From: a virus
IMG/VR virus record: IMGVR_UViG_3300036785_000305
Span: 1 to 64,000 of that record
Strand: one strand, 5' to 3'
DNA length: 64,000 bases
Within the stretch, counting starts at the first letter, position 1; every line of letters begins with the position of its first letter. Under the pieces are notes generated by a model that was given only the letters and a program-made list of their open reading frames with translations, was not told the DNA's origin and did no database searches. Shown in pieces: positions 5,525 through 64,000 of this stretch. The position numbers were made by a program, and so were the translations under genes.

Positions 5525-5525
5525 T

Positions 5526-50377: not shown

Positions 50378-50445
50378 TGGGGACCGGCCGGATATCTAGG
50401 TACCCGGCCGATCCCACAAGCCTTAGAATCGCTGTCCGCGTGGTG

Positions 50446-51801: not shown

Positions 51802-51803
51802 TT

Positions 51804-52130
51804 CTATCTCCATTCCGGGTAGAACTTGGAAGCCAGGCGCTTCTCGACGCCTGACATACTGAGAATGAACTTGCCATTCTCCAGAGCTATCGCCCCGCCG
51901 ACGCTGCCGGAGTCAGAGCCCCAGGTACTGCCGGCGCGGACCTGCCGGAACATTCGCAGGATGGCGTGGGCGTGATCCTCGGTCTTCACGTAGGCGTCGC
52001 TGTCGCCGGGAGTGAACTTGCCGGTGACGGTCACGATCTGGTCGTGGGCCGTGATCGTCAGGCCGTACTCTTCGGCCTTGGCGCGAATGATGGCCACGCG
52101 GATCTCCATCGAGGACTTCAATTCACACAT
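51804..52130 (-). CDS. Unknown 108-residue protein
   Basis: ATG 52130, one-base overlap with the upstream stop. MEIRVAIIRAKAEEYGLTIT, QIVTVTGKFTPGDSDAYVKT and HAHAILRMFRQVRAGSTWGS. A helical then beta-rich fold; the pattern 'GS.WGsdsgsVGG' occurs in several short phage proteins of unknown role. Confidence 0.6.
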   Translation of the reverse strand: MCELKSSMEIRVAIIRAKAEEYGLTITAHDQIVTVTGKFTPGDSDAYVKTEDHAHAILRMFRQVRAGSTWGSDSGSVGGAIALENGKFILSMSGVEKRLASKFYPEWR

Positions 52131-52333
52131 TACAGCATTCCTGACTTTGCGACATCGCTTACGGTGATCACTGTGCTCTCCTGGTCGCGGTCAGGCAGCG
52201 GAATGTCCGTCACTCCGCTGATGTTGTAGTAGGCGTAGTTGCGCCCGGCGAACTCGATGTAGATCTCTGCTGGCTGGTCATCGCTGCCGCCGTCAGCCTG
52301 GAGAGCGGCGATAAGCTCGCCCTTGGTCATCAT
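52130..52333 (-). CDS. Unknown 67-residue protein
   Basis: MMTKGELIAALQADGGSDDQ, PAEIYIEFAGRNYAYYNISG. The opening 'T..eLi..L.......pV.i.......y.i..V' is the pattern of small phage proteins that resemble one another across actinophages. Function unknown. Confidence 0.6.
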   Translation of the reverse strand: MMTKGELIAALQADGGSDDQPAEIYIEFAGRNYAYYNISGVTDIPLPDRDQESTVITVSDVAKSGML

Positions 52334-52334
52334 C

Positions 52335-52679
52335 CTAATCCTCCTGGAATGGCTCGACGCGGAACTTGGCGCCCATCACGCCGCCGAACTGCTCATGGAA
52401 GTCGTCGATCAGGGAGATGTAGTCGATGTAGTGCTCGCCGAGGTTTCGTAGCTTGCCGTCGATCAGCATTCGCCGCGCGCCGTCGATCTCCACGATCTTG
52501 ATGACCAGCGTCTCGTCGTCGCCGAGCACGCGCTCGATCTTGTACTCGTCGTCGCTGACCTGGGTAACGTCGACCGGCTCAGTAAACGGCCAGTTCTCGC
52601 TGTTGTCGTCGCCGCCGCCCAGCCACGGGTTCCCGTGGTTATCAAGCCAGGAATCGTATCCCGGTAGTTCTCTCGACAT
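52335..52679 (-). CDS. Unknown 114-residue protein
   Basis: First gene behind the promoter at 52721 (GAGGAAAGG before the ATG). The N terminus is Gly/Asp-rich (NPWLGGGDDNSENWPF); the rest is strand-rich (DEYKIERVLGDDETLVIKIV) with a helical end. No motif recognised. Confidence 0.55.
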   Translation of the reverse strand: MSRELPGYDSWLDNHGNPWLGGGDDNSENWPFTEPVDVTQVSDDEYKIERVLGDDETLVIKIVEIDGARRMLIDGKLRNLGEHYIDYISLIDDFHEQFGGVMGAKFRVEPFQED

Positions 52680-52720
52680 TGCCTTCGCCTTTCCTCACTC
52701 GCGGGAAATCCGCTACCTCT

Positions 52721-52750
52721 ATTATACCGCGTCAGGAGCGCGTGAGTCTA
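52721..52750 (-). promoter_or_regulatory. Promoter
   Basis: TAGACT (52750-52745), 18 nt, TATAAT (52726-52721), then AGAGGTAG. CTGACTAC precedes the -35. Drives the gene run 50446-52679. Confidence 0.8.
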
Positions 52751-52754
52751 GTAG

Positions 52755-52907
52755 TCAGTCGTCCTCAGTTTCGCTGTCGTCGCCGTCGATGTAGGTGTCG
52801 TCGTCGTCCGGGTCGCCGCAGCAGGCGAGATTTATCTGCTGCTCTGGCGTCAGCTCACTCCAACGCTTTGGCTGAAAAATACCGGAACCACTTGAAGAGT
52901 TAGTCAA
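52755..52907 (-). CDS. 50-residue protein with acidic tail
   Basis: TTG 52907 behind GGGAG, 4 nt after the previous stop. MTNSSSGSGIFQPKRWSELT, PEQQINLACCGDPDDDDTYI, then DGDDSETEDD. The acidic tail resembles SSB-type tips but lacks the final aromatic. Function unknown. Confidence 0.5.
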   Translation of the reverse strand: MTNSSSGSGIFQPKRWSELTPEQQINLACCGDPDDDDTYIDGDDSETEDD

Positions 52908-52911
52908 AACA

Positions 52912-53199
52912 TCATCTCCCGTGTTGGTAGATTGCGTAGATGATCGCGAACGGCATCGCCACTATTAGGACCGCGATCTGAAATAGCCAGACATGGAACT
53001 GGAGGAATGCCCACCAGGCGATACAGCCAACGAATCCGGCGGTCCAGACTGCTACTAGGAAGACGGTGATTATTAGCCAAACCAGGCAGCCGACGTAGAG
53101 CCCGCTCGGCCACTCGATGTCGCTCAGGCCATCCATCCATTTGCCCGCGCCGTGGTTAATTCTCCGCGACATGTCGGGCGCGAAGATAAGTCCAGACAT
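52912..53199 (-). CDS. Two-segment membrane protein
   Basis: 95 residues. After a basic N terminus, LYVGCLVWLIITVFLVAVWT and FHVWLFQIAVLIVAMPFAII are two hydrophobic segments, with a short basic end. Topology suits a small inner-membrane protein; holin or superinfection exclusion are possible functions but it lies in the early region, so holin is less likely. Confidence 0.65.
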   Translation of the reverse strand: MSGLIFAPDMSRRINHGAGKWMDGLSDIEWPSGLYVGCLVWLIITVFLVAVWTAGFVGCIAWWAFLQFHVWLFQIAVLIVAMPFAIIYAIYQHGR

Positions 53200-53202
53200 T
53201 GC

Positions 53203-53403
53203 CTAACTCCCGTTCCTCGTGACTAGGATTTTCTTGCCGTTCTGGGTATAGTTGCCGTGGACGGGATACTTGTACCAGCGTCCGTCGCGGAAGATGGCTA
53301 TAGCCCGTAGGTTGTCGTCGGTGTAGCCGTGGCCGTACAGGTGAACCGCGATAGCTTCTCGTAGGTGAAGGTCAGGCATTTCGCTCACCGGCTTGTTAGG
53401 CAT
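53203..53403 (-). CDS. Unknown 66-residue protein
   Basis: ATG 53403 follows GGGGG. MPNKPVSEMPDLHLREAIAV, HLYGHGYTDDNLRAIAIFRD, RWYKYPVHGNYTQNGKK. Overlaps the upstream gene by 8 nt. No motif recognised. Confidence 0.55.
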   Translation of the reverse strand: MPNKPVSEMPDLHLREAIAVHLYGHGYTDDNLRAIAIFRDGRWYKYPVHGNYTQNGKKILVTRNGS

Positions 53404-53602
53404 CCAGACCCCCTGGAATGATAACTCCTGTACGCCTGGAGAGTTCACGCCGGATCGTTTCGGAGCAGTCGTACATGATCGACTGGGCGATTTCCCAGTA
53501 GACGCTGTCTTCCTGCTCCTGGAGATCTGGACTGTCCTTGATGGTGTCCTCGGTGGCGAGGTCGATTGCCTTCATCGCGTCTTCGACGGAGTTGTAGAAC
53601 AT
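53396..53602 (-). CDS. Unknown 68-residue protein
   Basis: ATG 53602, TAATG overlap. MFYNSVEDAMKAIDLATEDT, YWEIAQSIMYDCSETIRREL predict helices. Small acidic helical protein, function unknown. Confidence 0.55.
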   Translation of the reverse strand: MFYNSVEDAMKAIDLATEDTIKDSPDLQEQEDSVYWEIAQSIMYDCSETIRRELSRRTGVIIPGGLDA

Positions 53603-53802
53603 TACTGCCCCTTCGCCTGCTTGCGCTCTTTGTCGGCAAGTCCTTGGCAGTACCATTCCGCCTGCGTCGTGGTGGCTGTTTTCCTCCCCGTCCCGGTGCT
53701 GATAACCCAAGTTGAACGCCCACCTTCCTCAGGTGGCGAGTAGTCGATGCCGTGATGCATGAATGCGCGCTCGATAGCGTTACGCCTGTCCTTGACGGTC
53801 AT
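53602..53802 (-). CDS. Unknown 66-residue basic protein
   Basis: MTVKDRRNAIERAFMHHGID, STWVISTGTGRKTATTTQAE. ATGA overlap with the upstream gene. The sequence suggests a helix followed by a strand pair. No motif recognised. Confidence 0.55.
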   Translation of the reverse strand: MTVKDRRNAIERAFMHHGIDYSPPEEGGRSTWVISTGTGRKTATTTQAEWYCQGLADKERKQAKGQ

Positions 53803-54317
53803 TTCGCTGCTGCCCGTCCCTGTCGGTTGAAGTCTGATGGCTGGAAGTACCTGTAGGTGCGGAGGGCGATCAGCACTGTCCGCGGGTCAACGCCGTTCGG
53901 GAAGGTGTCGCTGAAGTTCTCTTCGATCCAGCGCGAGTACCTCAGGATGTCGTCTGGAATTGGCTTCGTCAGGTAGCCGCGATGTCCGCTGATGCGCGGG
54001 GTCTTGGTCTTAGTTCCGTTGCTGCGCGGCTTCGCCGGCTGTGGCTCTGGCTCAGGCTCGGGCTCGTTGTCCTGGAGGGAATCAGTACAGGGCTTCCACT
54101 CCATCCCCTGCCAGATGTCGAAGCTGAACTCGCCGTGCTCGCGCTCGTACTCCTCAAGGATGCCGTTGTTCCAGTAGTCGAAGCAGAACGCCTCCTTCGA
54201 GCCCCAGTCCACTCTGCCGAATTCGATCTTCTCTTGATTCTGCGGCTTCCGATGACCGCACCGGTATTCGTGAATATGTACTGTGCCGTCGCTTATGTTC
54301 CAGGCGAACAGTCGCAT
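53799..54317 (-). CDS. Protein with C-terminal YxDK...YRYFQPSDFN paralogous domain
   Basis: 172 residues, AAAGGA upstream. N-terminal globular part (MRLFAWNISDGTVHIHEYRC, FCFDYWNNGILEEYEREHGE), an EPEPEPEPQPAK linker, then GYLTKPIPDDILRYSRWIEE...VDPRTVLIALRTYRYFQPSDFN (in part). That last domain is shared with the genes at 42676 and 60210, where it is again attached to low-complexity linkers. Confidence 0.7.
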   Translation of the reverse strand: MRLFAWNISDGTVHIHEYRCGHRKPQNQEKIEFGRVDWGSKEAFCFDYWNNGILEEYEREHGEFSFDIWQGMEWKPCTDSLQDNEPEPEPEPQPAKPRSNGTKTKTPRISGHRGYLTKPIPDDILRYSRWIEENFSDTFPNGVDPRTVLIALRTYRYFQPSDFNRQGRAAAK

Positions 54318-54338
54318 CCTTTTCCTTTCGATTCGGCT

Positions 54339-54368
54339 GCCCGCCCCTCCGTGCCAGGAGGGGCGGGC
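54339..54368 (-). other. Perfect 12-bp hairpin before a ribosome site
   Basis: A perfect 12-bp stem with a 6-nt loop fills the gap between the 54396 stop and the 54317 start; CGAAAGGAAAAGG follows. A second, smaller palindrome (GGAGGG/CCCTCC) lies beside it. There is no U-tract. Confidence 0.7.
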
Positions 54369-54395
54369 GCGGCAGGAGGGGTACCCTCCCTTTTG

Positions 54396-54908
54396 CTAGG
54401 CGGTTAGTGACTTGGCCGGGTGGCCGTTGGTGCTGCCTTCGAGCTTTCGCTCGGCGCGGTAGATGTCATAGAGCCAGGTGATCTCGCCGCCGCCCGGGTA
54501 CTCGGCCAGGAACGCGCCGATTGCGAAGAACGCTTGATCGTCGGCGTAGTCGTTCTTGTCGAGCCCGTGAAGAGTGCTGATGTAGATCGTGCCGCCGCCG
54601 ACCGCGCAGATAATCCTGCGGGTCACGACGTTGTAGAGGTAGGTTGCGCTACCCTCCTTGAGTTCGTCGTCGCTCCAGCCGACGGCTCTGGCATCTTCCT
54701 TGTTGGAGCAGCGCCGCTCGATGACGTACAGAAGGCAGGTCGGGTCGTAGGTCTTGCCGAAAATGTAACTGCCGTCGGCCGCGTACTGGGCCGGTGTGAT
54801 CCAGAATTCGAACTTCGGTGGCGTCGCGGCCTTGCGCGCCTTGATTGCTGCCCTCTCCCGCGCCTCTGCTTCGGCCAGTTCGCGGCGGAGGTCTGCTGAT
54901 GATTTCAC
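54396..54908 (-). CDS. Unknown 170-residue protein
   Basis: N-terminal helix (MKSSADLRRELAEAEARERA), then FEFWITPAQYAADGSYIFGK, CLLYVIERRCSNKEDARAVG and TRRIICAVGGGTIYISTLHG. It looks like an alpha/beta protein with one conserved Cys pair. Driven by the promoter at 54937. No family recognised. Confidence 0.6.
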   Translation of the reverse strand: MKSSADLRRELAEAEARERAAIKARKAATPPKFEFWITPAQYAADGSYIFGKTYDPTCLLYVIERRCSNKEDARAVGWSDDELKEGSATYLYNVVTRRIICAVGGGTIYISTLHGLDKNDYADDQAFFAIGAFLAEYPGGGEITWLYDIYRAERKLEGSTNGHPAKSLTA

Positions 54909-54936
54909 ATTTCGCCTTTCTTTGGGTCCTACCCCT

Positions 54937-54966
54937 ATTATACCTCGTCAGGGGCTTCGCAGTATA
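54937..54966 (-). promoter_or_regulatory. Promoter
   Basis: TATACT (54966-54961), 18 nt, TATAAT (54942-54937) followed by AGGGGTAGG. CTCTGACC precedes the -35, as at 57192. Confidence 0.7.
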
Positions 54967-54992
54967 GAGGTCAGAGCGTATGTTTTCCGGGG

Positions 54993-55337
54993 CTAGCTTC
55001 GCAGCAGGCGAACTTCTCCCTGGTCTAGGTAGAAGGCACGAGGTCCATGTTTCCGCGCCAGAGCAGCATGAACAACCTCGACCGGGTTGTCGTAGCGCAT
55101 TGACGGCCCGTTCCTGGAGGCAGGCCGAATGGTCATACCCCATACGCCGAACGTGTCGCGGAAGATGTGGACGCCATCCTTCAGGGTGGCACTGCCTACT
55201 GCGAGGTTGCCGTCCTTGTCGAGCATTACGATATAGTTGTCCTTGACGCCGTTGAAGTTGTTCTGGCGCGGTCCTGTGCGATTCGCTTCGGCATTCAAAG
55301 CCACCACAAGTTCGAGCAGCTTCTGCTTGGTGATCAT
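54993..55337 (-). CDS. Unknown 114-residue protein
   Basis: ATG 55337 (GGAAGGAAATGCG upstream). MITKQKLLELVVALNAEANR, YIVMLDKDGNLAVGSATLKD, HIFRDTFGVWGMTIRPASRN. A helix then strands. No motif recognised. Confidence 0.55.
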   Translation of the reverse strand: MITKQKLLELVVALNAEANRTGPRQNNFNGVKDNYIVMLDKDGNLAVGSATLKDGVHIFRDTFGVWGMTIRPASRNGPSMRYDNPVEVVHAALARKHGPRAFYLDQGEVRLLRS

Positions 55338-55421
55338 CGCATTTCCTTCCTGCTCGGTGCCGCCGCCCATATCGACGGCGGCACCTTCGTTACTGATTTA
55401 GACAGGTGTTACTGCCCAGCA

Positions 55422-55604
55422 CTATACCTCTTCTATTGTCCACCCAGACGGCAGGGTCTCGTAGAGGGCATTGACCTCATCCTCAGTCATCATCTGCCCA
55501 TCCCCTACCTGCCGGCCGTAGGCGTCCAGGATCTTAACCTGGACGTTGCGGGGAGCATCACGGTACATCTGCTCGTAGATTTCCTGCTCGATGTCGCGGG
55601 TCAT
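55422..55604 (-). CDS. 60-residue protein, unknown
   Basis: ATG 55604 overlaps the upstream stop by one base (TAATG). MTRDIEQEIYEQMYRDAPRN, VQVKILDAYGRQVGDGQMMT. A helix followed by strands with an acidic end. Function unknown. Confidence 0.55.
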   Translation of the reverse strand: MTRDIEQEIYEQMYRDAPRNVQVKILDAYGRQVGDGQMMTEDEVNALYETLPSGWTIEEV

Positions 55605-55894
55605 TACGGCGATTCCTCTGCTAGCTTGAAGATAGCTCCGGCGCACTGTTCGAGTGTGCCGTCGACGACGTACGTGCCTTCTGCGTATGGCTGCCATGAC
55701 CAGGACTCGCCAGGCTCGTGGCCGGGTAGGCTGGTACGCCAATCTCCGCGCCAGCGCACCAGGTCACCACGGTAGTTGTCCTGGCCGTCGTAGATCATCC
55801 ACCTGGTCGCGCCCTTGCGGCCGCTCGCAGTGGAGTGGACAGGCACCCAGCCTGGCGGCAGGATCTCGCGGAGGTTGATGCGTTTTCTAGGCAT
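55604..55894 (-). CDS. Unknown 96-residue protein
   Basis: ATG 55894 immediately follows CGAAAAGGGGATGTG (a GTG at 55897 is in frame). MPRKRINLREILPPGWVPVH, ATRWMIYDGQDNYRGDLVRW, GTYVVDGTLEQCAGAIFKLA. The Trp-rich middle suggests a small beta fold. Preceded by the alternating-CG stretch. Confidence 0.55.
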   Translation of the reverse strand: MPRKRINLREILPPGWVPVHSTASGRKGATRWMIYDGQDNYRGDLVRWRGDWRTSLPGHEPGESWSWQPYAEGTYVVDGTLEQCAGAIFKLAEESP

Positions 55895-55923
55895 CACATC
55901 CCCTTTTCGATTGGGTAACGATT

Positions 55924-55978
55924 CGATATATATCGAGCGCGCGCGCGAACGCGCGCGAGCCGATCGCGCGCGCGCCCC
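55924..55978. other. Alternating purine-pyrimidine (CG)n stretch with palindromes
   Basis: CGATATATATCG (55924-55935), then runs of alternating CG interrupted by AA, AGCC and AT up to 55978. This fills the gap between the ATPase stop (55980) and the next ribosome site. It can form nested hairpins in RNA and Z-type DNA. Confidence 0.7.
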
Positions 55979-55979
55979 G

Positions 55980-56873
55980 TCATGCTATTCTCGGCTTGCG
56001 ACCCGGAGGATTGCGCCTCTGGATCCCAGTCTTGTAGTCGGACATTATCCTGACTGTCGCGGAGTCGACCTTCACGTCAACACCGTCGACTTCTACGTAG
56101 ATCGAGGTCTGCTCGATTCGATACCCGAATGGCGCCCAGGGAGCGCCGCACTTGAGCTTCTCGCAGACTACGGTCGCCAGGCCACCTTCGTCATCGTCAG
56201 GCATAATCCTGATAACGAAGTCGGCCGCATTGAATAGTCGCGGACCTCGCATTCTCTTGTCGTTATAGTTCGGATGCGCTATCGCGAGCACTACGCAATC
56301 TAGTTCCCGCGCCAGCATCTTCATTCCCTGAACGACCCGGTTAGCGCTGGTATCGTTCGAGATTGAGAGATTCGTGAAGTCGGACAGCGCGTCCAGGATC
56401 ACGAGCTTGAGATCTGGTATCTGCTTCAGCTGAGCGATCGCCACAGTCAGCGCGAGCGTAGGCTCGCCATGACTGCTTAGCGGTAGCTCGAACGGCGCGG
56501 TGATAGCGAAGAGGCCATCATCGTGCCATTCTGGATTCTCTTCGAGCCACTTGCTACGCTCGGGCTCCTGGAGATTCTTCGCTACCTGCTCGCGATCTGC
56601 GTAACCTCGTGCTAGCCGGGCTTGCTCGCGGATGCCCGCGTCATACTTACCTTCGCCAAAGACGATCGCGACACTTCCCTCACCAGTCTTGCGACCGGCG
56701 AAGTCCGCACCATTCACGACGGCTAGGGCTAGCTCGACATTGACGAGTAGACTCTTGCCTGCGCGGGACGGTCCCCAGACGAAGCCAATACTAGGCCCCT
56801 CAGGAATCATTCCCTCCACGAGGTATCGCGGCGGTGTCGAGTCCATATCGCTGAAGTGTATGATCTCAGCCAT
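55980..56873 (-). CDS. RecA-like AAA ATPase (RepA/AAA_25 type), probable helicase or recombination mediator
   Basis: 297 residues. SIGFVWGPSRAGKSLLVN has Walker A 34-41; LKLVILDALSDFTNLS is Walker B; VVLAIAHPNYNDKRMRGPRL ends in a conserved catalytic region of RepA-type hexameric ATPases. VAIVFGEGKYDAGIREQARL is the strand-helix after Walker A. It may be the replicative helicase or a DNA repair ATPase. GGAG precedes the ATG. A short leader frame overlaps its start. Confidence 0.8.
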   Translation of the reverse strand: MAEIIHFSDMDSTPPRYLVEGMIPEGPSIGFVWGPSRAGKSLLVNVELALAVVNGADFAGRKTGEGSVAIVFGEGKYDAGIREQARLARGYADREQVAKNLQEPERSKWLEENPEWHDDGLFAITAPFELPLSSHGEPTLALTVAIAQLKQIPDLKLVILDALSDFTNLSISNDTSANRVVQGMKMLARELDCVVLAIAHPNYNDKRMRGPRLFNAADFVIRIMPDDDEGGLATVVCEKLKCGAPWAPFGYRIEQTSIYVEVDGVDVKVDSATVRIMSDYKTGIQRRNPPGRKPRIA

Positions 56874-56889
56874 ACAACTCCAAGTTCAT
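56866..56889 (-). CDS. Seven-residue leader frame coupled to the ATPase gene
   Basis: ATG 56889 stands right behind the AAAAGGGGAUAAG of element 1 and encodes MNLELYG, ending in a TGA that lies inside codons 2-3 of the ATPase gene. Its own codons supply the GGAG used by the ATPase start. It is therefore a plausible translational-coupling leader; expression is unproven. Confidence 0.45.
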   Translation of the reverse strand: MNLELYG

Positions 56890-56892
56890 CTT

Positions 56893-56959
56893 ATCCCCTT
56901 TTCTAGTGACTGGATAGCCACTCCTCAGGCGACGGCCTTGGCCGCCGCCCAAAGGGCAA
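56893..56959 (-). promoter_or_regulatory. Two-hairpin SD element, copy 1
   Basis: Minus-strand order: stop codon, UUGCCCU, hairpin P1 (12 bp, CAAG loop), GAGG, hairpin P2 (AGUGGC with GUCACU), UAGAAAAGGGGAU. P1 closes with a U-A pair where copies 2 and 3 have G-C. Confidence 0.8.
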
Positions 56960-57130
56960 CTACTCGCCTACTTCCGTCTTCTCATCTATCAGGATGTAAC
57001 CCTCGACGACCCAGAACCGGCCGAAGGCAGAGGTAATATGGCCGGCGTCCATTGCGTCCCAGATCGCCTCGTGGACTGCTTCATCCTCGGTGATGTACTC
57101 GTCTTCGAGATTCAGCTTCGCTACATACAC
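56960..57130 (-). CDS. 56-residue acidic protein, unknown
   Basis: GTG 57130 (GAGG 9 nt upstream). MYVAKLNLEDEYITEDEAVH, EAIWDAMDAGHITSAFGRFW, ending DEKTEVGE. First gene behind the promoter at 57168. Short alpha/beta, no motif recognised. Confidence 0.6.
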   Translation of the reverse strand: MYVAKLNLEDEYITEDEAVHEAIWDAMDAGHITSAFGRFWVVEGYILIDEKTEVGE

Positions 57131-57167
57131 TACACACTACCTCACTCGCTCCGTCGTCCTTACCTCT

Positions 57168-57197
57168 ATTATACCCTAGCACAAGGCTAGCAGAATA
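57168..57197 (-). promoter_or_regulatory. Promoter
   Basis: TATTCT (57197-57192), 18 nt, TATAAT (57173-57168), then AGAGGTA. CTCTGACC precedes the -35. It lies downstream of the array's first genes, between the 57202 stop and the 57130 start. Confidence 0.7.
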
Positions 57198-57201
57198 GAG
57201 G

Positions 57202-57438
57202 TCAGAGCGGCTTGTCGAAATCCGCGCCGAGCCTGTCGACGATATACGCATTCAGCTTTGCGTACACCGTTCGAGTGGCGGGACGGCCGGGCAGGTCTAG
57301 AAGTTCCTGCGCGATAGTACGAGCTGAGCGGCCACGCCGCTTCATGCCTTTGATCTCCAGGCTCAAGGCTGCTCGCAAGGCGAGTACGCTGGCCATGCGA
57401 GTCTGCTCTTCGCCCGAGATGCTGAAGCCTTCGCTCAT
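57202..57438 (-). CDS. 78-residue helical protein, unknown
   Basis: ATG 57438 follows AAAAGGGGATGACA. MSEGFSISGEEQTRMASVLA, LRAALSLEIKGMKRRGRSAR, TIAQELLDLPGRPATRTVYA. Helical, with a basic middle (KGMKRRGRSART), possibly nucleic-acid binding. Confidence 0.6.
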   Translation of the reverse strand: MSEGFSISGEEQTRMASVLALRAALSLEIKGMKRRGRSARTIAQELLDLPGRPATRTVYAKLNAYIVDRLGADFDKPL

Positions 57439-57442
57439 TGTC

Positions 57443-57513
57443 ATCCCCTTTTCTAGTGACCTGATAGCCACTCCGCAGGCGACACCTCGCGGTGCCGCCC
57501 ACAGGGCAGTTAC
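57443..57513 (-). promoter_or_regulatory. Two-hairpin SD element, copy 2
   Basis: GUAACUGCCCU, P1 of 12 bp closed by a GCGA (GNRA) tetraloop with outer G-C, U-G and G-U pairs, then P2 (AGUGGC/GUCACU, loop UAUCAG) and UAGAAAAGGGGAU. Confidence 0.85.
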
Positions 57514-57915
57514 CTAGACTTCCAATTCCGTCTTGCCGCAGCTCGGGCAGACATAGGAAGTGTTCATCCCGTCGCCGAGAATGTAGTGGTGACGGATATG
57601 GAACGCAGCGCCGCAATCGCACACGAACTCGATCTCCAGGATGCTCGACCACTTCGGCGTTGTCCTGGCGACGAGTTCCGCGTTGTACTGGCCAGGGTTG
57701 TCGTAACCCGCGGCAAGCACAGCTCGGACGCGGCAGTCGCGCTCCCACTCCGCGATCATGTCGCCACAGTCGCCGCTCGGGTCGCCCATTGGATCGGGCT
57801 CGGCGGTAATGTAGCTCCAGACTGCGGACGCGGCGCGGCTTAGCTTGCTCGCTGCGTACCGCACGGCAGGCGCTTCCTGCTCCCACGGAATCAGCTCGTA
57901 GTCGTCGCTGTCCAT
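57514..57915 (-). CDS. Zinc-ribbon-containing protein
   Basis: 133 residues from ATG 57915. MDSDDYELIPWEQEAPAVRY, AASKLSRAASAVWSYITAEP; the C terminus EIEFVCDCGAAFHIRHHYIL, NTSYVCPSCGKTELEV has two CxC/CxxC pairs for one zinc ribbon. Function unknown, perhaps nucleic-acid binding. Confidence 0.65.
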   Translation of the reverse strand: MDSDDYELIPWEQEAPAVRYAASKLSRAASAVWSYITAEPDPMGDPSGDCGDMIAEWERDCRVRAVLAAGYDNPGQYNAELVARTTPKWSSILEIEFVCDCGAAFHIRHHYILGDGMNTSYVCPSCGKTELEV

Positions 57916-57918
57916 CGT

Positions 57919-57993
57919 ATCCCCTTTTCTGTTCGTGGCTGGATAGCCACTCCGCAGGCGACACCTCGCGGTGCCGCCCACAGGGCAGTTACC
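57919..57993 (-). promoter_or_regulatory. Two-hairpin SD element, copy 3
   Basis: Same P1 as copy 2 (GCGA tetraloop). P2 is GUGGC/GCCAC with loop UAUCCA, a full Watson-Crick version of the G-U containing helix in copies 1 and 2. Ends in CAGAAAAGGGGAU. Confidence 0.85.
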
Positions 57994-57994
57994 T

Positions 57995-58210
57995 TCAGTC
58001 CTGCTGCTTCGCCCGGTTGCGCAGGAAGTTGATAAAGTCTTCCATGCGTTCCTCTCGCCAGTCGCGGAGTTCCCACTCGGCTATTGGCTTCAGCGGGGCG
58101 TGGTACGCTTCGATGTACGCTAGGTACGCAAATTCCTCGGGCGACAGGTCGCCGTCGAATGCTGGATCGTACTCTGGCTGGTCATCGAACGCCTCAGCCT
58201 CAGTGCGCAC
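57995..58210 (-). CDS. 71-residue acidic helical protein
   Basis: GTG 58210 behind GGAGG, overlapping the upstream gene by 11 nt. VRTEAEAFDDQPEYDPAFDG, DLSPEEFAYLAYIEAYHAPL, EWELRDWREERMEDFINFLR. The middle motif 'LSPEEFAYLAYIEAYH' is helical. Function unknown. Confidence 0.6.
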   Translation of the reverse strand: MRTEAEAFDDQPEYDPAFDGDLSPEEFAYLAYIEAYHAPLKPIAEWELRDWREERMEDFINFLRNRAKQQD

Positions 58211-58400
58211 CTCGCACCTCCAGACGCTGGCCCTTGCCCAGGCCGAGGCCCAGACCATAGAGGCGGAAGTGCTCTTCGCACATGAATGCCCACGGCCCGT
58301 GAATCGTCGCGCCATCGTACAGCGCAGGCTCGGGCTCGCGAGTGCCGTGGACAAAGCTACACGATGGTAGCTCGTCGACCACAACCTTCGTGTTCGGCAT
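58200..58400 (-). CDS. 66-residue protein with a Cys/His site
   Basis: ATG 58400 follows copy 4. VVVDELPSCSFVHGTREPEP and AFMCEEHFRLYGLGLGLGKG give C...H and CxxH, a recurring actinophage pattern ('C..H......AfYDGkT..GpWa.MC..Hf...G.GLG.G'). Probably a zinc protein of unknown function. Confidence 0.7.
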   Translation of the reverse strand: MPNTKVVVDELPSCSFVHGTREPEPALYDGATIHGPWAFMCEEHFRLYGLGLGLGKGQRLEVRGAH

Positions 58401-58402
58401 TG

Positions 58403-58485
58403 TATCCCCTTTTCTGTTCAGTGACTATTCCCTCTAGCCACTCTCCGGGCGACAGGCGCGGTTACGCCTGCCTCCCAGAGGGCAG
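58403..58485 (-). promoter_or_regulatory. Two-hairpin SD element, copy 4
   Basis: UAACUGCCCU, then P1 with an enlarged CAGGCG/CGCCUG inner helix and an A-G mismatch, P2 AGUGGC/GUCACU with a longer loop, and CAGAAAAGGGGAU. Confidence 0.75.
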
Positions 58486-58596
58486 TTACAGGAACTCTTC
58501 CGGCAGTTCCTCTAGCCAGTAGGCGCGACTGGAATGCTTAGGCTTATATGCCCAGCCGTTCCACCATCGTGCGAGGCGAATCAGGATCTCGCTCAT
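58486..58596 (-). CDS. 36-residue protein
   Basis: ATG 58596 overlaps the previous stop (ATGA). MSEILIRLARWWNGWAYKPK, HSSRAYWLEELPEEFL; Trp-rich and basic, with a helical C terminus. Its stop (TAA) is the first base of copy 4. Function unknown. Confidence 0.55.
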   Translation of the reverse strand: MSEILIRLARWWNGWAYKPKHSSRAYWLEELPEEFL

Positions 58597-58877
58597 CGCG
58601 GCGGGAACAGGTCGTTGAAGTTCGTGCCGGGCGCGTACTTGCTGGCGTCCACGCCACGATAGAACTTGACCAGACGGCCGAGGTTCTCATGATGAGGAGC
58701 GACGGTATCGAAGCTGCCGTGCGTAGTGCGGTGCCACGTCTGAACGTAACCGCCGGGGTAGTCATTCGAATGACTGGCTACCTCGGTGATCTCACAGACC
58801 CGAAGGTCATTGTTCCAGAACTTGAGACCAACCTCGATCGGGAAAGCGTCGACACTGTAGTGCGTCGCCTTGTCCAT
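58593..58877 (-). CDS. Unknown 94-residue protein
   Basis: MDKATHYSVDAFPIEVGLKF, WNNDLRVCEITEVASHSNDY, VQTWHRTTHGSFDTVAPHHE. Beta-rich, His-rich. It follows copy 5. Function unknown. Confidence 0.6.
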   Translation of the reverse strand: MDKATHYSVDAFPIEVGLKFWNNDLRVCEITEVASHSNDYPGGYVQTWHRTTHGSFDTVAPHHENLGRLVKFYRGVDASKYAPGTNFNDLFPPR

Positions 58878-58880
58878 TGT

Positions 58881-58964
58881 ATCCCCTTTTCTAGTGACTT
58901 CGACTTTCGATAGCCACTCCCCGGACGACGGTGATTTCTCGCCGCCGTCCGGAGGGCAGTTACC
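58881..58964 (-). promoter_or_regulatory. Two-hairpin SD element, copy 5
   Basis: P1 here is CCGGACGGCGG with CCGUCGUCCGG: the inner G-C pair of other copies has become A-U, a true compensatory change. P2 AGUGGC/GUCACU, then UAGAAAAGGGGAU. Confidence 0.85.
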
Positions 58965-58970
58965 TAATGC

Positions 58971-59222
58971 CTAGAGGTCGAGCTCAGCCAGGATATTGCC
59001 GTCGCCGACCGGCGACATATCCTCGGCGACATCCTGCGTCTCAATCGCGTAGGCGAGGTCGCGCAGGCAGGCTCCGACAGTCTCGCGGTCGATGCCGTGG
59101 CCGAGAGCGATTCGCGCAGCCAGCGTCGAGTTGAACTCAAGCAGTCCGAGCGCGAATGCCTTACGCTCGTGCGCTTCCTCGTAGTCGCCAACAACAGGCT
59201 GCTCGATTTCGCCGTTGCTCAT
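58971..59222 (-). CDS. 83-residue acidic helical protein, unknown
   Basis: ATG 59222. MSNGEIEQPVVGDYEEAHER, KAFALGLLEFNSTLAARIAL, CLRDLAYAIETQDVAEDMSP. Mostly helical, no motif. Follows copy 6. Confidence 0.6.
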   Translation of the reverse strand: MSNGEIEQPVVGDYEEAHERKAFALGLLEFNSTLAARIALGHGIDRETVGACLRDLAYAIETQDVAEDMSPVGDGNILAELDL

Positions 59223-59226
59223 CGTA

Positions 59227-59299
59227 ATCCCCTTTTCTAGTGGCGTACGTTCGTAGCCACTCCCCGGGCGACACCGCTTAGGTGCCGCCCAGAGGGCAG
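59227..59299 (-). promoter_or_regulatory. Two-hairpin SD element, copy 6
   Basis: P1 outer pairs C-G, U-G; loop UAAGC. P2 is the perfect 6-bp AGUGGC/GCCACU. Ends in UAGAAAAGGGGAU. Confidence 0.85.
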
Positions 59300-59485
59300 T
59301 TACGCCGTAGCGTACTCGGAGAACATTGCCCAGTTCTCGGGAAGGGCACTCCACAACTCGCGGAGTTCCTCATCGTCGACGACGAGCGGCCTGCTGAACC
59401 GCTCGCCGTCCCGGAGCAGCACGATCCGGGATACGCCGAGCAGGTGGGCGTCGCACTTATTCCGGCCGTCGCACGCGCAGGCCAT
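59300..59485 (-). CDS. 61-residue Cys-rich-start protein
   Basis: MACACDGRNKCDAHLLGVSR has three Cys and one His in the first 14 residues; the rest (LRDGERFSRPLVVDDEELRE) is alpha/beta. TAATG overlap with the upstream gene. Function unknown. Confidence 0.6.
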   Translation of the reverse strand: MACACDGRNKCDAHLLGVSRIVLLRDGERFSRPLVVDDEELRELWSALPENWAMFSEYATA

Positions 59486-59616
59486 TACTTAGCCGCCTGC
59501 GCGTAGAACTCGATCTTGCTCTTCAGCGCGGCGCGGATGCTACCGGGCGCCTCAACGGCGTCGAGCAGCCACATCGCGGTGTTGGCGAGTTCCCGGATGG
59601 CTTCGTCCTTATCCAT
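59485..59616 (-). CDS. 43-residue helical protein
   Basis: ATG 59616 behind copy 7. MDKDEAIRELANTAMWLLDA, VEAPGSIRAALKSKIEFYAQ. Fully helical, possibly a dimer. Function unknown. Confidence 0.6.
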   Translation of the reverse strand: MDKDEAIRELANTAMWLLDAVEAPGSIRAALKSKIEFYAQAAK

Positions 59617-59620
59617 CTCA

Positions 59621-59691
59621 ATCCCCTTTTCTAGCAGCCGAATGGCCACTCCCCCGGCGACGGCCGTAGCCGCCGCCCGGAGGGCAGTCAC
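59621..59691 (-). promoter_or_regulatory. Two-hairpin SD element, copy 7
   Basis: P1 ends in a UACG (UNCG) tetraloop, outer pairs C-G and C-G with one internal mismatch. P2 is AGUGGCC/GGCUGCU with loop AUUC. Ends in UAGAAAAGGGGAU. Confidence 0.8.
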
Positions 59692-59943
59692 TTAGTCGCA
59701 GGTACAGCCGACCAGCTTCGCCGGCAGGTGATTCGGAAACTGCCTCGTAATCGGGCAGACCGGCCGGAGGTCCCTAGCCGGGCACGGGCATTCCTCGGTA
59801 CGCCAGGTGACGTAGAAGATGCTCCGCGCCCCGATGTAGCTGATGTTCTTAGTGCTCCATCGGAGGTCAGGATGGTTAACGCACGTCAGCTCGATGTGCT
59901 CGCCGTACTCGGCGAAGGCTACGATGCGACCGTCGTTGTCCAT
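59692..59943 (-). CDS. 83-residue protein with Cys-rich C terminus
   Basis: ATG 59943. MDNDGRIVAFAEYGEHIELT, CVNHPDLRWSTKNISYIGAR, then EECPCPARDLRPVCPITRQF and LVGCTCD. Eight cysteines/histidines suggest two zinc sites. Function unknown. Confidence 0.6.
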   Translation of the reverse strand: MDNDGRIVAFAEYGEHIELTCVNHPDLRWSTKNISYIGARSIFYVTWRTEECPCPARDLRPVCPITRQFPNHLPAKLVGCTCD

Positions 59944-59947
59944 TTAT

Positions 59948-60024
59948 ATCCCCTTTTCTATTCAGCAGCCTGGATGGCCACTCCCCGGGCGACGGGGAAA
60001 CCCCGCCGCCCGGAGGGCAGTCAC
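59948..60024 (-). promoter_or_regulatory. Two-hairpin SD element, copy 8
   Basis: P1 is a fully paired 13-bp stem (one G-U) with a UUU loop and C-G outer pairs. P2 AGUGGCC/GGCUGCU, loop AUCCA, then AUAGAAAAGGGGAU. Confidence 0.85.
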
Positions 60025-60129
60025 CTAGCCGTCGATCTCACCCATATCGATCAGCATCGCGCGTGCCTCTTTAGCGTTCTCCGCGAGGCCACTTTCGACG
60101 AGTGCCTGGATCTTAGCCTTAGTGCTCAT
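60025..60129 (-). CDS. 34-residue helical peptide
   Basis: ATG 60129 behind copy 9. MSTKAKIQALVESGLAENAK, EARAMLIDMGEIDG. Helix-turn-helix sized, but too short to call. Function unknown. Confidence 0.5.
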   Translation of the reverse strand: MSTKAKIQALVESGLAENAKEARAMLIDMGEIDG

Positions 60130-60132
60130 CGT

Positions 60133-60209
60133 TATCCCCTTTTCTATTCAGCAGCTACGATAGCCACTCCTCGGGCGACGGCCGAAGCCGCCGCCCAAAG
60201 GGCAGTTAC
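60133..60209 (-). promoter_or_regulatory. Two-hairpin SD element, copy 9
   Basis: P1 ends in the classic C(UUCG)G tetraloop; outermost pair U-A. P2 AGUGGCU/AGCUGCU, loop AUCGU, then AUAGAAAAGGGGAU. Confidence 0.85.
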
Positions 60210-60602
60210 CTACGCCTTCCTACGGCCCAGTGCCTTACCGTCCGCGTCGCGGTTCGCCGGTGACTTCTGGAAGTGCCCGTACGCCTTAATCGCGATATAG
60301 ACAAGCCTCTCGTCCATCGCGACGGGAAGGGCGTACAGCTCCGGGAACTCGGCACGCAGCCAGTCGCAGTAGCGCTTCGCCACGGGCGAGAGTTCCTTAT
60401 CGGCGTAGCCCTTAAGGCCAGACGATACGGTCGCCTTCTTAGCAGACTCCGCAGCGGACTTCGCCTCCGCCAGTTCCGCCTCCGCAGCCGCGATCCGTGC
60501 GTCGCGCTCGGCGAGCAGGGCCTTAAGCTCAGCCAGCTCGGCAGCAGCGGACTTACGGGCGGCACGGGCGACGGTCGCCGGAGTAGCAGTCTCGTTAGCC
60601 AT
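60210..60602 (-). CDS. Coiled-coil protein with YADKELSP...YGHFQKS domain
   Basis: 130 residues from ATG 60602 (CGAAAAGGGGAAG upstream). A long N-terminal helix (AAAELAELKALLAERDARIA) is followed by GYADKELSPVAKRYCDWLRA and VYIAIKAYGHFQKSPANRDA. The C-terminal domain is the third copy of the family in this window and here it is joined to a dimerising coiled coil. First gene of the array behind the structured leader at 60630-60751. Confidence 0.7.
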   Translation of the reverse strand: MANETATPATVARAARKSAAAELAELKALLAERDARIAAAEAELAEAKSAAESAKKATVSSGLKGYADKELSPVAKRYCDWLRAEFPELYALPVAMDERLVYIAIKAYGHFQKSPANRDADGKALGRRKA

Positions 60603-60629
60603 TTTCTTCCCCTTTTCGAGCATTTTCGA

Positions 60630-60751
60630 CTACCGGGATCGGTAGCCGGCGCGCACGTTCGCGAGCAGTTTTCGACGGCTTCGAAAAGCACGCGAACGCG
60701 ACGCCGGGTAGATATCCCGTACGGAGCACCCATCGGTAAAGAGAGTGCTCC
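60630..60751 (-). promoter_or_regulatory. Structured leader RNA with nested hairpins
   Basis: Minus-strand order: hairpin 60751-60723 (7 bp), then a large stem 60707-60646 with CCGGCG/CGCCGG outside, CGTTCGCG/CGCGAACG in the middle and TTTTCGA/TCGAAAA inside, then a 6-bp hairpin 60645-60630, then the ribosome site. The 60603-60629 spacer holds it. Confidence 0.7.
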
Positions 60752-61460
60752 CTAGGAAAAGGGGGGATATTCGCTATGTAGGTTTCAAGAATCAGTCGGG
60801 ACGCTCCGGGCCGAATCGCTAAGGGCACTACTAATACCCTATCGTCGCTATCCTACGGAGCGGGACGGGAGCACCTCCCGCCGAGCACCTTCGCCGGTCC
60901 CCCGCGCGCGACGCGCGCGCGGCCCGGCCCACCCTCCTATCTAACGGTCTAACCTTATAGCTAAAGCTTATCGTACTATCCGGCCCTAGCATATAGCTAT
61001 CTAGGACTATCTTAGGACTAGATAGGGACTAGATTTTCGTAGCCCAAAATAACTAGTCGCGCGCCTATCGGTCGTAGTCCTTTAGGACTAGATTTTCGAC
61101 GCACACGTAGCCCGAAAGGACTAGACGCGGGTGGGCGCGCGTAGCCCGAAAGGACTAGTCCCGCGACGCACACACCGCCCGAATTAACTACTCGCGGCGG
61201 GCGCGACGTAGTTCGAAGTAACTAGTCCGCATAGCCCGAATTAACTAGTTCGCGCCCATCGGTGGGGGCTCGAAAGGACTATCCGTGGGTCCATCGGTCG
61301 TAGTTATTCCGGAGGGTATCGCCATAGTTATAGGGAGGGGGTCGACTACACTCGCGCGTAGTTCGAAAGGACTAGGCCACGCCCATCGGTGGGTAGCCCG
61401 AAAGGACTATAGGCGACCATCGGTGACTGTAGTCGACCCCTCCCAGATAACTAGTCCGGG
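60727..61460. repeat. Non-coding region with two interleaved short repeats (origin or control region candidate)
   Basis: No gene is visible between 60603 and 61615. Repeat A, TAG(C/T)(C/T)CGAA(A/T)...ACTAG (about 16 nt), has copies near 61040, 61075 (palindromic TAGTCCTTTAGGACTA), 61108, 61142, 61175, 61209, 61232, 61266, 61359 and 61394, with half-copies at 61001-61032 and 61446. Repeat B, C(C/T)ATCGGT, appears at about 60729, 61064, 61255, 61290, 61382 and 61417. 60940-61035 is more AT-rich and 60901-60925 is alternating CG. Confidence 0.75.
61321..61450. repeat. Long inverted repeat within the repeat region
   Basis: Arms 61333-61350 and 61428-61444 match over 17 bp with one bulged G; flanking TAGTTAT blocks extend the similarity to about 25 nt. 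The roughly 77-nt loop contains two copies of repeat A and two of repeat B. Confidence 0.75.
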
Positions 61461-61542
61461 ACCGGCGTAGCTGGGGCTCATAGAAATCGCAACCAATTTT
61501 TAGCAGCGTCTAAAATGGGGGAATTCCTGTTGCGTAGACGTG

Positions 61543-61576
61543 AAAAAGCCCGGCCCCCATTGCTGAGGACCGGGCT
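61543..61576 (-). terminator. Intrinsic terminator of the 61616-63210 gene run
   Basis: On the minus strand AGCCCGG and CCGGGCT form a 7-bp stem followed by a run of five U. It lies 40 nt beyond the stop of the last gene (61616). Confidence 0.85.
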
Positions 61577-61615
61577 CTGGCTAGACCCACCCGCGTGGGC
61601 GGCTACTGGGGATAG

Positions 61616-61828
61616 TTAACACGCGGGCGGGGGCTTTTGAGAGTTTTTGATTTCATCCGGATCCAGGCTGAACAGGATCTTCAGGTCGAATGCTGCGTGC
61701 TGGGCCTCTTCGGCTGCTGCGTGTGCCTTCGCCCGGTTGCCGGAGTATGCCGCGGCCAGGCATCTACGCACGGCAACCTGGACTTTGGATGCGGCTGCGG
61801 TGAGCTCATCACGAGTCGGCATTGACAT
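61616..61828 (-). CDS. 70-residue helical basic protein
   Basis: ATG 61828 (TGATG overlap). PTRDELTAAASKVQVAVRRC, AAYSGNRAKAHAAAEEAQHA, FDLKILFSLDPDEIK. Helical bundle-like; no motif. Last gene before the terminator. Confidence 0.6.
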   Translation of the reverse strand: MSMPTRDELTAAASKVQVAVRRCLAAAYSGNRAKAHAAAEEAQHAAFDLKILFSLDPDEIKNSQKPPPAC

Positions 61829-62067
61829 CAGACTGGGTATCCCTGTTCGTTGTAGCGTTCCTCTTCGGCGGCGTGTTCCTCGCAGAAGTATGGCACACGC
61901 GGATCTCCATCGCCAAAGATCATGGCTACCTTGGCTTCCCGCTCGCAGCGCGGCTCGGTGCCGTACCGGCTCCAGTCGCATCGATGCCCGGTGTCAGGGT
62001 ATAGCTCGAAGTTAGTGTCCCCACAGCCATTGCACGCGATATCGGCGCGGGTGATTATGATTGGCAT
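61828..62067 (-). CDS. 79-residue zinc-binding protein
   Basis: RADIACNGCGDTNFELYPDT, GHRCDWSRYGTEPRCEREAK, PYFCEEHAAEEERYNEQGYP. C..CG, C, C and CxxH give one or two zinc sites, as in small phage zinc-ribbon proteins. Function unknown. Confidence 0.65.
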   Translation of the reverse strand: MPIIITRADIACNGCGDTNFELYPDTGHRCDWSRYGTEPRCEREAKVAMIFGDGDPRVPYFCEEHAAEEERYNEQGYPV

Positions 62068-62069
62068 GG

Positions 62070-62483
62070 CTACCCCGTGAACTTCACGTTGACGACTTCG
62101 GCGCCACTAGACTTTTTGTCGCCAGACCTCTCGCGCTCTTTGGCGCGGCGGTTTAGCTCGCGGCGAATTGCGGCGCGGTGCTCTGCCGACATGAAGAACG
62201 GGCTCCACTCCCGGCCCTTTGTGTTGATGAAGTCCTTGGGTGAGTACCCACGAGGGTAACGGTAGCTGTTCTTGTTAGAGTCCAGGGTCCAGCTCGACGT
62301 CATCACCCGCGTCCGGACTACGCCGCATCCTCGCTCGCACGAGCCAGTCATTGCGTATGACCCGTGGCGTATTCGCTCAATCGAGTCGTACAGATCCGCG
62401 TCCCACACGTGACCGAGGTCCCAGCAGACGAGGATGATAGTGTCAGTATCGGATAGCCATCTCTTAAAACCAGGTTCGAGCAT
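62070..62483 (-). CDS. Unknown 137-residue protein
   Basis: GAAAAGGCGAATGA before ATG 62483. KRWLSDTDTIILVCWDLGHV, GSCERGCGVVRTRVMTSSWT, then a basic helical C terminus (AAIRRELNRRAKERERSGDK). C..GC could be part of a metal site shared with LVCWDLGH. Function unknown. Confidence 0.6.
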   Translation of the reverse strand: MLEPGFKRWLSDTDTIILVCWDLGHVWDADLYDSIERIRHGSYAMTGSCERGCGVVRTRVMTSSWTLDSNKNSYRYPRGYSPKDFINTKGREWSPFFMSAEHRAAIRRELNRRAKERERSGDKKSSGAEVVNVKFTG

Positions 62484-62504
62484 TCATTCGCCTTTTCAGT
62501 AGGG

Positions 62505-62559
62505 GTACGACGGGCCGGTTATGAGGGCGTGGTTTCGGTCACACTCCGGCCCGCCGTAC
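62505..62559 (-). other. Leader hairpin between promoter and gene 62483
   Basis: Arms 62559-62546 and 62518-62505 pair 8 + 5 bp around an A-C mismatch, with further pairing in the 27-nt loop. It lies in the 5' leader of the transcript starting near 62625. No U-tract. Confidence 0.6.
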
Positions 62560-62630
62560 GGGGGTGTATTGCGAGAATCATCACACCTTAAGCATCACCG
62601 TCCCTCCCGTCGGTTTACCCGGACGGTACT

Positions 62631-62660
62631 AGTATACCGTACCCAGGGCCTATCAGGGAA
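62631..62660 (-). promoter_or_regulatory. Promoter, second subtype
   Basis: TTCCCT (62660-62655), 18 nt, TATACT (62636-62631). Nearly identical over 30 positions to 50301-50330. It overlaps the stop codon of the RuvC-like gene (62653). Confidence 0.65.
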
Positions 62661-63210
62661 GAGGGAATTTATAGTCAGGATATTTAGGATCTCCTGGCCA
62701 GAGCGATATAGCAAATTCTGGGTTCTCAGCAGCCCGGCGTAGGGCAACAATGGCGTGTCTGGATGCCGCCCGGATATGATCACTTCCCTTTACCCAGAGC
62801 TGCCATTTATGTAGGCGCTCATCTGTTGCCGTACCGAACGCCAAGGCGCGGGACTGGAAGTGAAGAGTTGAGTCGCCCATTCTCTTCTGGTACTTAAGCA
62901 ATGTCAGCATCGCGCCTATGCGAACAGGGGAAAGGGTCTCAGGGTCCGTCGACTTGAAACCTGGGTCCTGGTCCCAGGCCTCGCAGATAAGAGCTGGCCC
63001 GTACATGTAATCAAGGGACTGAATCTCACCAGCGAGCCGCGCCAGCTCTACGGCCTGGTATGCTTCATCGCCGGTGAACTCGCCGTAGTCAATTTCAAGG
63101 ATCTTCCGTGGCTCATTGCCGAATATACACTTGCGTTCTACAGTTATGACAAACCAGCCGGTCGTCGAGCCAGGGTCGATGCCCATTACGTGGATGTTCT
63201 TCGGCGGCAC
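62653..63210 (-). CDS. RuvC-like Holliday-junction resolvase or nuclease
   Basis: 185 residues from a GTG with GGAGGGAAT upstream. VMGIDPGSTTGWFVITV (D11 in GIDPGSTTG) is the RNase H-fold N terminus; ALICEAWDQDPGF has the second acidic residue, and WVKGSDHIRAASRHAIVALR is the C-terminal helix. In close relatives this helix usually has 'DA..H', but here 'AAS' stands at that place, leaving D of SDH as the possible ligand. Probably cleaves branched DNA in replication or packaging. Confidence 0.8.
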   Translation of the reverse strand: MPPKNIHVMGIDPGSTTGWFVITVERKCIFGNEPRKILEIDYGEFTGDEAYQAVELARLAGEIQSLDYMYGPALICEAWDQDPGFKSTDPETLSPVRIGAMLTLLKYQKRMGDSTLHFQSRALAFGTATDERLHKWQLWVKGSDHIRAASRHAIVALRRAAENPEFAISLWPGDPKYPDYKFPLP

Positions 63211-63371
63211 ATTCCCTCCTGTCCCCTTGCCAGGCTGACCAGGATACTCCGATGCGGCCTGGCCAGCCTGGGCGCTGACCGGAAAGGCGAAAAACCGGCA
63301 AGGCGCAAGTAAATCCTACCGTACCGGCCGGGAAAAGGGAAGGGGGCAAAGGAAAAAATTCTATTTTGATA

Positions 63372-63400
63372 TAGACTTCGCTCGTAACCTAGCGTATACT
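63372..63400 (+). promoter_or_regulatory. Promoter of the primase-polymerase operon
   Basis: TAGACT (63372-63377), 17 nt, TATACT (63395-63400), same type as at 569 and 8900. About 100 nt of leader follows before the first start codon. Confidence 0.75.
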
Positions 63401-63422
63401 TAGAGTTTACCTAGAATTTAAG

Positions 63423-63470
63423 TTGGCGGGCCGGGGAGCAAGGGGAGGGAGCTTCAACCCAGCCCGCCAA
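63423..63470 (+). other. Leader hairpin of the primase-polymerase transcript
   Basis: TTGGCGGGC (63423-63431) pairs perfectly with GCCCGCCAA (63462-63470), with GGG/CCC continuing inside around a roughly 24-nt loop. It is 31 nt before the ATG at 63501 and has no U-tract. Confidence 0.7.
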
Positions 63471-63500
63471 GGCGATGGTTACCGTAGGAGGGGTCCATCT

Positions 63501-63566
63501 ATGAACGAGTATACCCGGTCGCGGGCGAGAAGTAAAGCCCGAATTACGAACATCTTTAAAACGTGA
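63501..63566 (+). CDS. 21-residue basic leader peptide coupled to primase-polymerase
   Basis: ATG with GTAGGAGGGG 8 nt upstream. It encodes a basic peptide (MNEYTRSRARSKARITNIFK plus T) whose TGA stop overlaps the GTG of the next gene (GTGA). The next gene has no ribosome site of its own, so translation of this leader probably delivers ribosomes to it. Confidence 0.6.
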   Translation: MNEYTRSRARSKARITNIFKT

Positions 63567-64000
63567 GCCTGCGAGGGGAGAAACACTTCCCATTCCTCGT
63601 CGCGGCAGAATACTACCGCAGCCTAGGCTGGTCAGGAACGATCCCGGTCACTCGCTGGGGAACAAAGGCTCCGCTTGCCAAGGGAGTAACTGGTTACAAC
63701 GGTGTTGATGCTGGTACTGATCTACTTGCGCAGCTTATATCCGAATTCCCGACCGCTAATATAGGGATTAGACTGCCCTGGGACGTCATTGGGATTGACG
63801 TAGATGCCTATGACGGTCGTCAAGGCTGGAAGACAATACAGTATATCGAGCGCAGGGTTAACTGTCCACTGCCGCCGACCTGGCGCTCGACCTCCCGCGC
63901 ACCCGAAGATGGTGTTTCAGGAATCTACCTGTACAGAGCGACCCGCGCCAGGACACAAGTATGGGTAACGGACCTTGGCGTCGGCTCTGGAGTCGAGATT
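63563..64000 (+). CDS. Bifunctional primase-polymerase N-terminal domain (partial, runs off right edge)
   Basis: 146 codons visible from GTG 63563. AAEYYRSLGWSGTIPVTRWG, KAPLAKGVTGYNG, ANIGIRLPWDVIGIDVDAYD, LPPTWRSTSRAPEDGVSGIY follow the order of prim-pol domains: the 'K.P..kG.tG' loop, the IGIDVDAYD catalytic DxD, and the 'lP.T..s.sR..d..GiYly' strand. It synthesises primers and may extend them; a helicase domain may follow outside the window. Confidence 0.9.
   Translation, partial: MSLRGEKHFPFLVAAEYYRSLGWSGTIPVTRWGTKAPLAKGVTGYNGVDAGTDLLAQLISEFPTANIGIRLPWDVIGIDVDAYDGRQGWKTIQYIERRVNCPLPPTWRSTSRAPEDGVSGIYLYRATRARTQVWVTDLGVGSGVEI

Follow-up and report, generated by a model that had tools for sequence, protein, structure and literature searches.

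A two-hairpin RNA element between small phage genes, and the hammerhead ribozymes that a related phage has at orthologous borders

Phage T7 carries RNase III sites between its early genes. Clustered hammerhead ribozymes flank prophage genes, three arrays have been shown to cleave, and it was proposed that these hammerheads process phage transcripts into shorter mRNAs (Perreault et al., PMC3088659). Among start-associated repeats, the SAS/ESAS of cluster K mycobacteriophages (PMC3203893, PMC12699233) are the nearest described; departures from the ESAS repeat do not generally support RNA pairing, and the authors suggested DNA sites (PMC3203893). Here we analyzed a window of 64,000 nucleotides (nt) from an uncultured phage, most of the 66,231-base IMG/VR virus record IMGVR_UViG_3300036785_000305, in which nine copies of a two-hairpin element lie on the minus strand between positions 56893 and 60210, each occupying the border between co-oriented genes. 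Rfam has no entry for this RNA family, of which two phages have 20 copies (nine here and eleven in the relative G001, IMGVR_UViG_3300010376_001093); its probable role has known parallels.

Along the transcript, the order is stop codon, a strand with the sequence RRYUGCC (the stop-side strand, or A), hairpin P1, hairpin P2, 0-4 spacer bases, AGAAAAGGGGA and, ~6 nt further on, the start codon. AGAAAAGGGGA is the ribosome-site region downstream of P2 in 20 of 20 copies, which bears out the claim of the original prediction that the element delivers the ribosome site of the next gene. P1 is present as predicted, but with 14 pairs it is two pairs longer than had been drawn, its first pair being formed at the last C of UGCCC. 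The GGAG proposed as a linker or separate motif had to be abandoned: the GG belongs to P1, which it closes, and the AG is the start of P2 (in G001 the GGAG is often CGAG), and hence the two hairpins abut with no linker. The length of P1 and its loops vary freely (loops of 4-29 nt, the GCGA, UUCG and UACG loops claimed earlier among them), and the 5′ arm of P2 (B) is an invariant AGUGRCY. The stop codon had been described as merged with the element; this is true of part of the copies, and in the rest it lies outside, its last base being 6-17 nt before P1 in all 20. The suggested pairing of the 5′ CCCU with the AGGG of the ribosome site is unsupported, because the U is replaced by G in 6 of the 11 G001 copies without compensation, while the ribosome site stays AAAAGGGG. 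Nearly all non-overlapping borders carry the element and overlapping genes never do, but it is not found at every such border as had been stated, since the 57202/57130 border has a promoter-like TATAATAGAGGTA. The sequence GAAAAGGGGA is also found ahead of element-free genes (60608-60617 and 55899-55908), which makes it a local ribosome site outside the element fold. No terminator-like site (hairpin plus U run) was detected at any copy, and the reading as an intrinsic terminator was rejected.

A covariance model was built from 12 copies, and the other eight of the 20 were held back. In the window, the model gave full-length matches at all nine copies (60.7-87 bits), and the next-best match scored 15.9 bits. 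The copies outside model training scored 41.8-75.7 bits (in the window, W60143 with 75.7, W59957 with 68.9 and W58413 with 60.7). Nothing significant was found in 725 kb of decoy loci (best E = 0.51), and the antisense strand gave at most 19.5 bits, compared with 41.8-89.5 bits for the sense copies. The nine predicted copies were thus all recovered, and the covariance search elsewhere added the eleven of G001. Relatives had been found through the SNF2 helicase (encoded at 44230-46158 in the window), which gave 18 related contigs; in 16 further contigs of this kind besides G001 there was no convincing copy, the best weak match being one of 23 bits at a contig end. The loci obtained by a loose pattern scan of viral contigs are all rejected by the covariance model, and stricter scans of viral contigs found real copies in G001 alone, plus single matches, those of one scan having no good model score. 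A pattern scan of genome contigs gave four single matches, approximately the chance expectation, none of them convincing under the model. No Rfam 15 family matched the element above its gathering threshold; one G001 copy gave a sub-threshold CPEB3 ribozyme match (16.7 bits, E = 1.2), which is likely due to chance.

The substitutions among the copies reveal what has been selected. Over the 20 copies, P1 (280 cells) has 51 G.U and 1 A.C, and P2 has 18 G.U and no A.C, 69 versus 1 in total. In a DNA palindrome there would be no cause for G.T to be favored over A.C, so that the selected molecule is the sense-strand RNA. When 12 copies were placed on the proposed structure, 97.2% of the cells were paired, compared with 35-63% when the structure was slid, and 31 double-change cells were counted, where shuffling gave 10.9 on average. 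A home-made test in the manner of R-scape re-dealt the substitutions of the 20 copies along a FastTree tree; the top nine of 1188 column pairs were all proposed ones (seven in P1, one in P2 and one between the stop-side strand and P2), and four P1 pairs had E < 0.05 across all pairs; these values are approximate, because the copies are paralogous and their tree has poor support. With homologues added, the compensatory change seen in the original prediction therefore holds. We conclude that the two-hairpin element is a real RNA structure under selection.

A second related phage, G018 (IMGVR_UViG_3300036832_000354), has nine Hammerhead_II matches (type II, RF02276) in its first 5.6 kb, four of them above the gathering score; no such match was obtained in 14 control genomes. 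CUGAUGA is present in 8 of the 9 and CCGAUGA in the other, all nine have GAAAC, and the loop of stem I likely forms a pseudoknot with a strand just before the ribosome site. Each hammerhead sits between a stop codon and a ribosome site. The border layout is alike in both phages (stop codon, hairpin, hairpin, ribosome site), with gaps of ~71-83 nt in G018 and of 75-93 nt at most borders here. The genes at 58400 (73% identical in G018), 57915 (57%) and 57444 (65%) follow elements 6, 7 and 8 in the window, and their G018 orthologues follow hammerheads. The gene at 55894 (75% identical) also follows a hammerhead in G018; here it follows a long GC palindrome (GCGCGCGCG...), which lies with CGATATATATCG at 55898-55990 on the minus strand.

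The original prediction had offered a translation switch, a processing or stability signal and a recombination boundary without choosing among them. The hammerheads at three orthologous G018 borders favor processing or border definition. Position, size and orthology agree in suggesting that the element does a hammerhead-like job, and we tentatively prefer to see it as a cis-acting intercistronic RNA border, which would define or protect the ends of single-gene messages. The genes would be carried on one early polycistronic transcript with an element between them, and we infer a cut, in or beside the element, for which either a host RNase or the RNA itself would be responsible. After the cut, the upstream message would end (3′) in P1 and the downstream message would begin (5′) with P2, and the ribosome site of the next gene would be exposed. 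Several points weigh against such a border function. Sharing a border with hammerheads is not proof of a shared function, and ribozyme family searches (Rfam) detected no known catalytic core in the element. Other orthologous borders use other devices: the AAA_25 gene has an element upstream here and in G001, and in G018, G023, G021 and G002 a hairpin together with a promoter-like site, and the 55337 border has a single hairpin here and an element in G001; thus, some 5′ hairpin may be all that a border needs. Moreover, the invariant 5′ arm of P2 is more constrained than an end-protecting hairpin needs. It would be a long shot that the element is an undescribed self-cleaving RNA class that replaced hammerheads at the same borders, with an active fold made from the stop-codon strand, the P2 5′ arm and the P1/P2 junction. 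Ribozyme classes have reportedly been discovered through such genomic association in Weinberg-type searches. With hammerheads at the orthologous borders, a repeat that had no explanation becomes a case of functional replacement that can be tested: at borders where one phage seems to rely on a catalytic RNA, its relative has a non-hammerhead fold, and the replacement could have gone in either direction.

The main rival to an intercistronic border is a translation-coupling switch, to which we give a real but minor chance. Strand A is able to pair with arm B, which would extend P1 and exclude P2; a ribosome at the upstream stop codon would cover A and free B, P2 would form, and the next ribosome site would open. 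Pair -5:b5 is C-G in 14 copies, U-A in five, U.G in one and C.A in none (p = 0.0022), and -7:b7 is A-U in 13, G-C in four and A.C in three (p = 0.014). This register alone has many compensatory cells (nine, against 0-3 in other registers), and two G001 copies in which b5 is unpaired within P2 nevertheless keep its match to -5. The short distance from stop codon to P1 in every copy also fits a switch, as does the rise in predicted mean ribosome-site accessibility, from 0.49 to 0.67, when A is masked. However, this gain is modest and uneven across copies, and the predicted A:B occupancy is low in most of them (mean 0.17). Furthermore, the A:B hypothesis arose from the same alignment that was used to test it, and its best pair, with E = 0.062 among the 28 proposed pairs, misses significance among all pairs (E = 2.65), so that A:B pairing is suggestive. 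Cutting at the same borders in G018 would also uncouple the cistrons. If P1 and P2 were instead a passive insulator, they would shield the next ribosome site from upstream pairing and would slow down RNases, with neither cleavage nor switching; unrelated hairpins lie just upstream of the ribosome site at other starts of this phage and its relatives (e.g., 55898-55990 and 55337-55421), and the free variation of P1 would be tolerated, but such a role is unlikely, for it leaves the invariant A and B strands and their covariation unexplained.

Two further explanations look to the DNA. The repeats could be maintained as homology for the exchange of small gene cassettes. Most border-flanked genes differ between this phage and G001, and recognizable homologues are reordered (59616 and 59222 here, 59485 and 58596 in G001), while the element borders recur; gene cassettes turn over and the border type persists. 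Homology alone, however, needs neither compensatory pair changes nor strand-specific G.U, and the copies diverge from one another, unlike expected recombination substrates, which renders this explanation improbable; cassette exchange may make use of the repeats but leaves the covariation of the RNA unexplained. Repeats of inverted-repeat character upstream of starts would also agree with a promoter or operator, bound as DNA by a phage protein, which is what was suggested for ESAS. This reading is disfavored and exceedingly improbable, given the excess of G.U over A.C across P1 and P2, the low antisense scores of the covariance model and the lack of enrichment of promoter-like sites at the elements.

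The coordinates of the elements and of the G018 hammerheads are collected in Table 1. The elements belong to a minus-strand cluster of small genes, which starts at 60602 and reaches down to an AAA_25 ATPase gene (55980-56873; AAA_25 by Pfam); all nine are intergenic, and there is none before the first gene (60602). The start after element 8 is most likely the ATG at 57438 rather than that at 57444, judging by the usual 6-nt spacing. Between element 9 and the ATPase gene there is a seven-codon open reading frame (ORF), MNLELYG (56866-56889, minus strand), which overlaps the ATPase start codon and may encode a leader peptide.

Table 1. Positions of the two-hairpin elements in the window and of the type II hammerheads in G018.
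Feature	Position (strand)	Stop-side strand	P1	P2	Ribosome site	Next start	Model score (bits)	Remarks
Element 1	60136..60210 (-)	60201-60210	60169-60200 (UUCG loop)	60150-60168	60136-60145	60129	75.7	Held out of model
Element 2	59950..60025 (-)	60016-60025	59983-60015	59964-59982	59950-59959	59943	68.9	Held out of model
Element 3	59623..59692 (-)	59683-59692	59651-59682 (UACG loop, one G.G mismatch)	59633-59650	59623-59632	59616	83	
Element 4	59229..59304 (-)	59295-59304	59262-59294	59239-59261	59229-59238	59222	83.3	
Element 5	58883..58964 (-)	58955-58964	58919-58954	58893-58918	58883-58892	58877	78.2	
Element 6	58406..58490 (-)	58481-58490	58443-58480	58420-58442	58406-58415	58400	60.7	Held out of model; hammerhead ribozyme at orthologous G018 border
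Element 7	57921..57993 (-)	57984-57993	57952-57983 (GCGA loop)	57934-57951	57921-57930	57915	74.1	Hammerhead ribozyme at orthologous G018 border
Element 8	57445..57514 (-)	57505-57514	57473-57504 (GCGA loop)	57455-57472	57445-57454		86.3	Hammerhead ribozyme at orthologous G018 border
Element 9	56895..56964 (-)	56955-56964	56923-56954	56905-56922	56895-56904	56889 (7-codon ORF)	87	ORF overlaps AAA_25 ATPase start, 56873
G018 type II hammerheads (region L202, positions 1-6500)	1017-1078, 1419-1485, 1632-1700, 1950-2011, 2232-2299, 2784-2844, 3470-3531, 4021-4082, 5567-5627							One per gene border

A nucleotide search with window positions 1-25000 and 50000-64000 gave no match among named phages, and the terminase has up to ~50% identity to terminases of phages of Corynebacterium and other actinobacteria. 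Upstream of the early gene cluster, ~10 imperfect copies of a GGACTAGTCCTTTCGGGCTACG-like motif are mixed with ACCGATGG at 61038-61424 on the minus strand, an array that could be an origin, an operator array or a structured leader. ACCGATGG occurs in the window at 60737, 61263, 61298, 61390 and 61424 (minus strand). It is confined to the transcribed strand, both in this phage and in its relatives (also in regions L012, L013 and L201-L204), with 3-10 copies per region examined, and often lies within a hairpin loop or directly before a ribosome site. A promoter-like TATAATAGRGGTA is found ahead of gene groups at 46189, 48785, 50294, 52714, 54930 and 57161 (minus strand); with up to 2 mismatches there are 10 matches in the window, compared with 1.4 expected.

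How does the element compare with the known systems? With the RNase III sites of T7 it shares the placement of intercistronic hairpins in an early phage transcript, and stacked P1 and P2 would span ~21 bp, which we infer to be near the size of an RNase III substrate; the sequence and the phage are different, and the element has two hairpins where T7 has one irregular hairpin. The likeness to SAS/ESAS (PMC3203893, PMC12699233) consists of many repeats just upstream of small-gene starts in an actinophage-like genome, with a ribosome-site-like part and inverted repeats. The SAS consensus GGGATAGGAGCCC is absent by the start codon, all 20 copies having AGAAAAGGGGA there. In addition, the element has two hairpins with compensatory and strand-specific changes, and ESAS has one 17-bp inverted repeat without RNA-pairing support. 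Identity with SAS/ESAS was thus rejected on sequence and on RNA-supporting changes, as the original prediction had anticipated when it set the two apart, and the element is relevant to the start-associated repeats of actinophages, themselves unexplained. Nor is it a hammerhead: the RF02276 model has no match in the window or in G001, neither the CUGAUGA nor the GAAA motif of the hammerhead core is present in the element fold of the 20 aligned copies, P1 and P2 abut, and self-cleavage of the element is only a candidate activity. What it has in common with the clustered phage and prophage hammerheads (RF02276, type II; PMC3088659) is the arrangement, one RNA element per border with two hairpins spanning from stop codon to ribosome site, and the presence of such hammerheads at three orthologous borders of the related phage G018.

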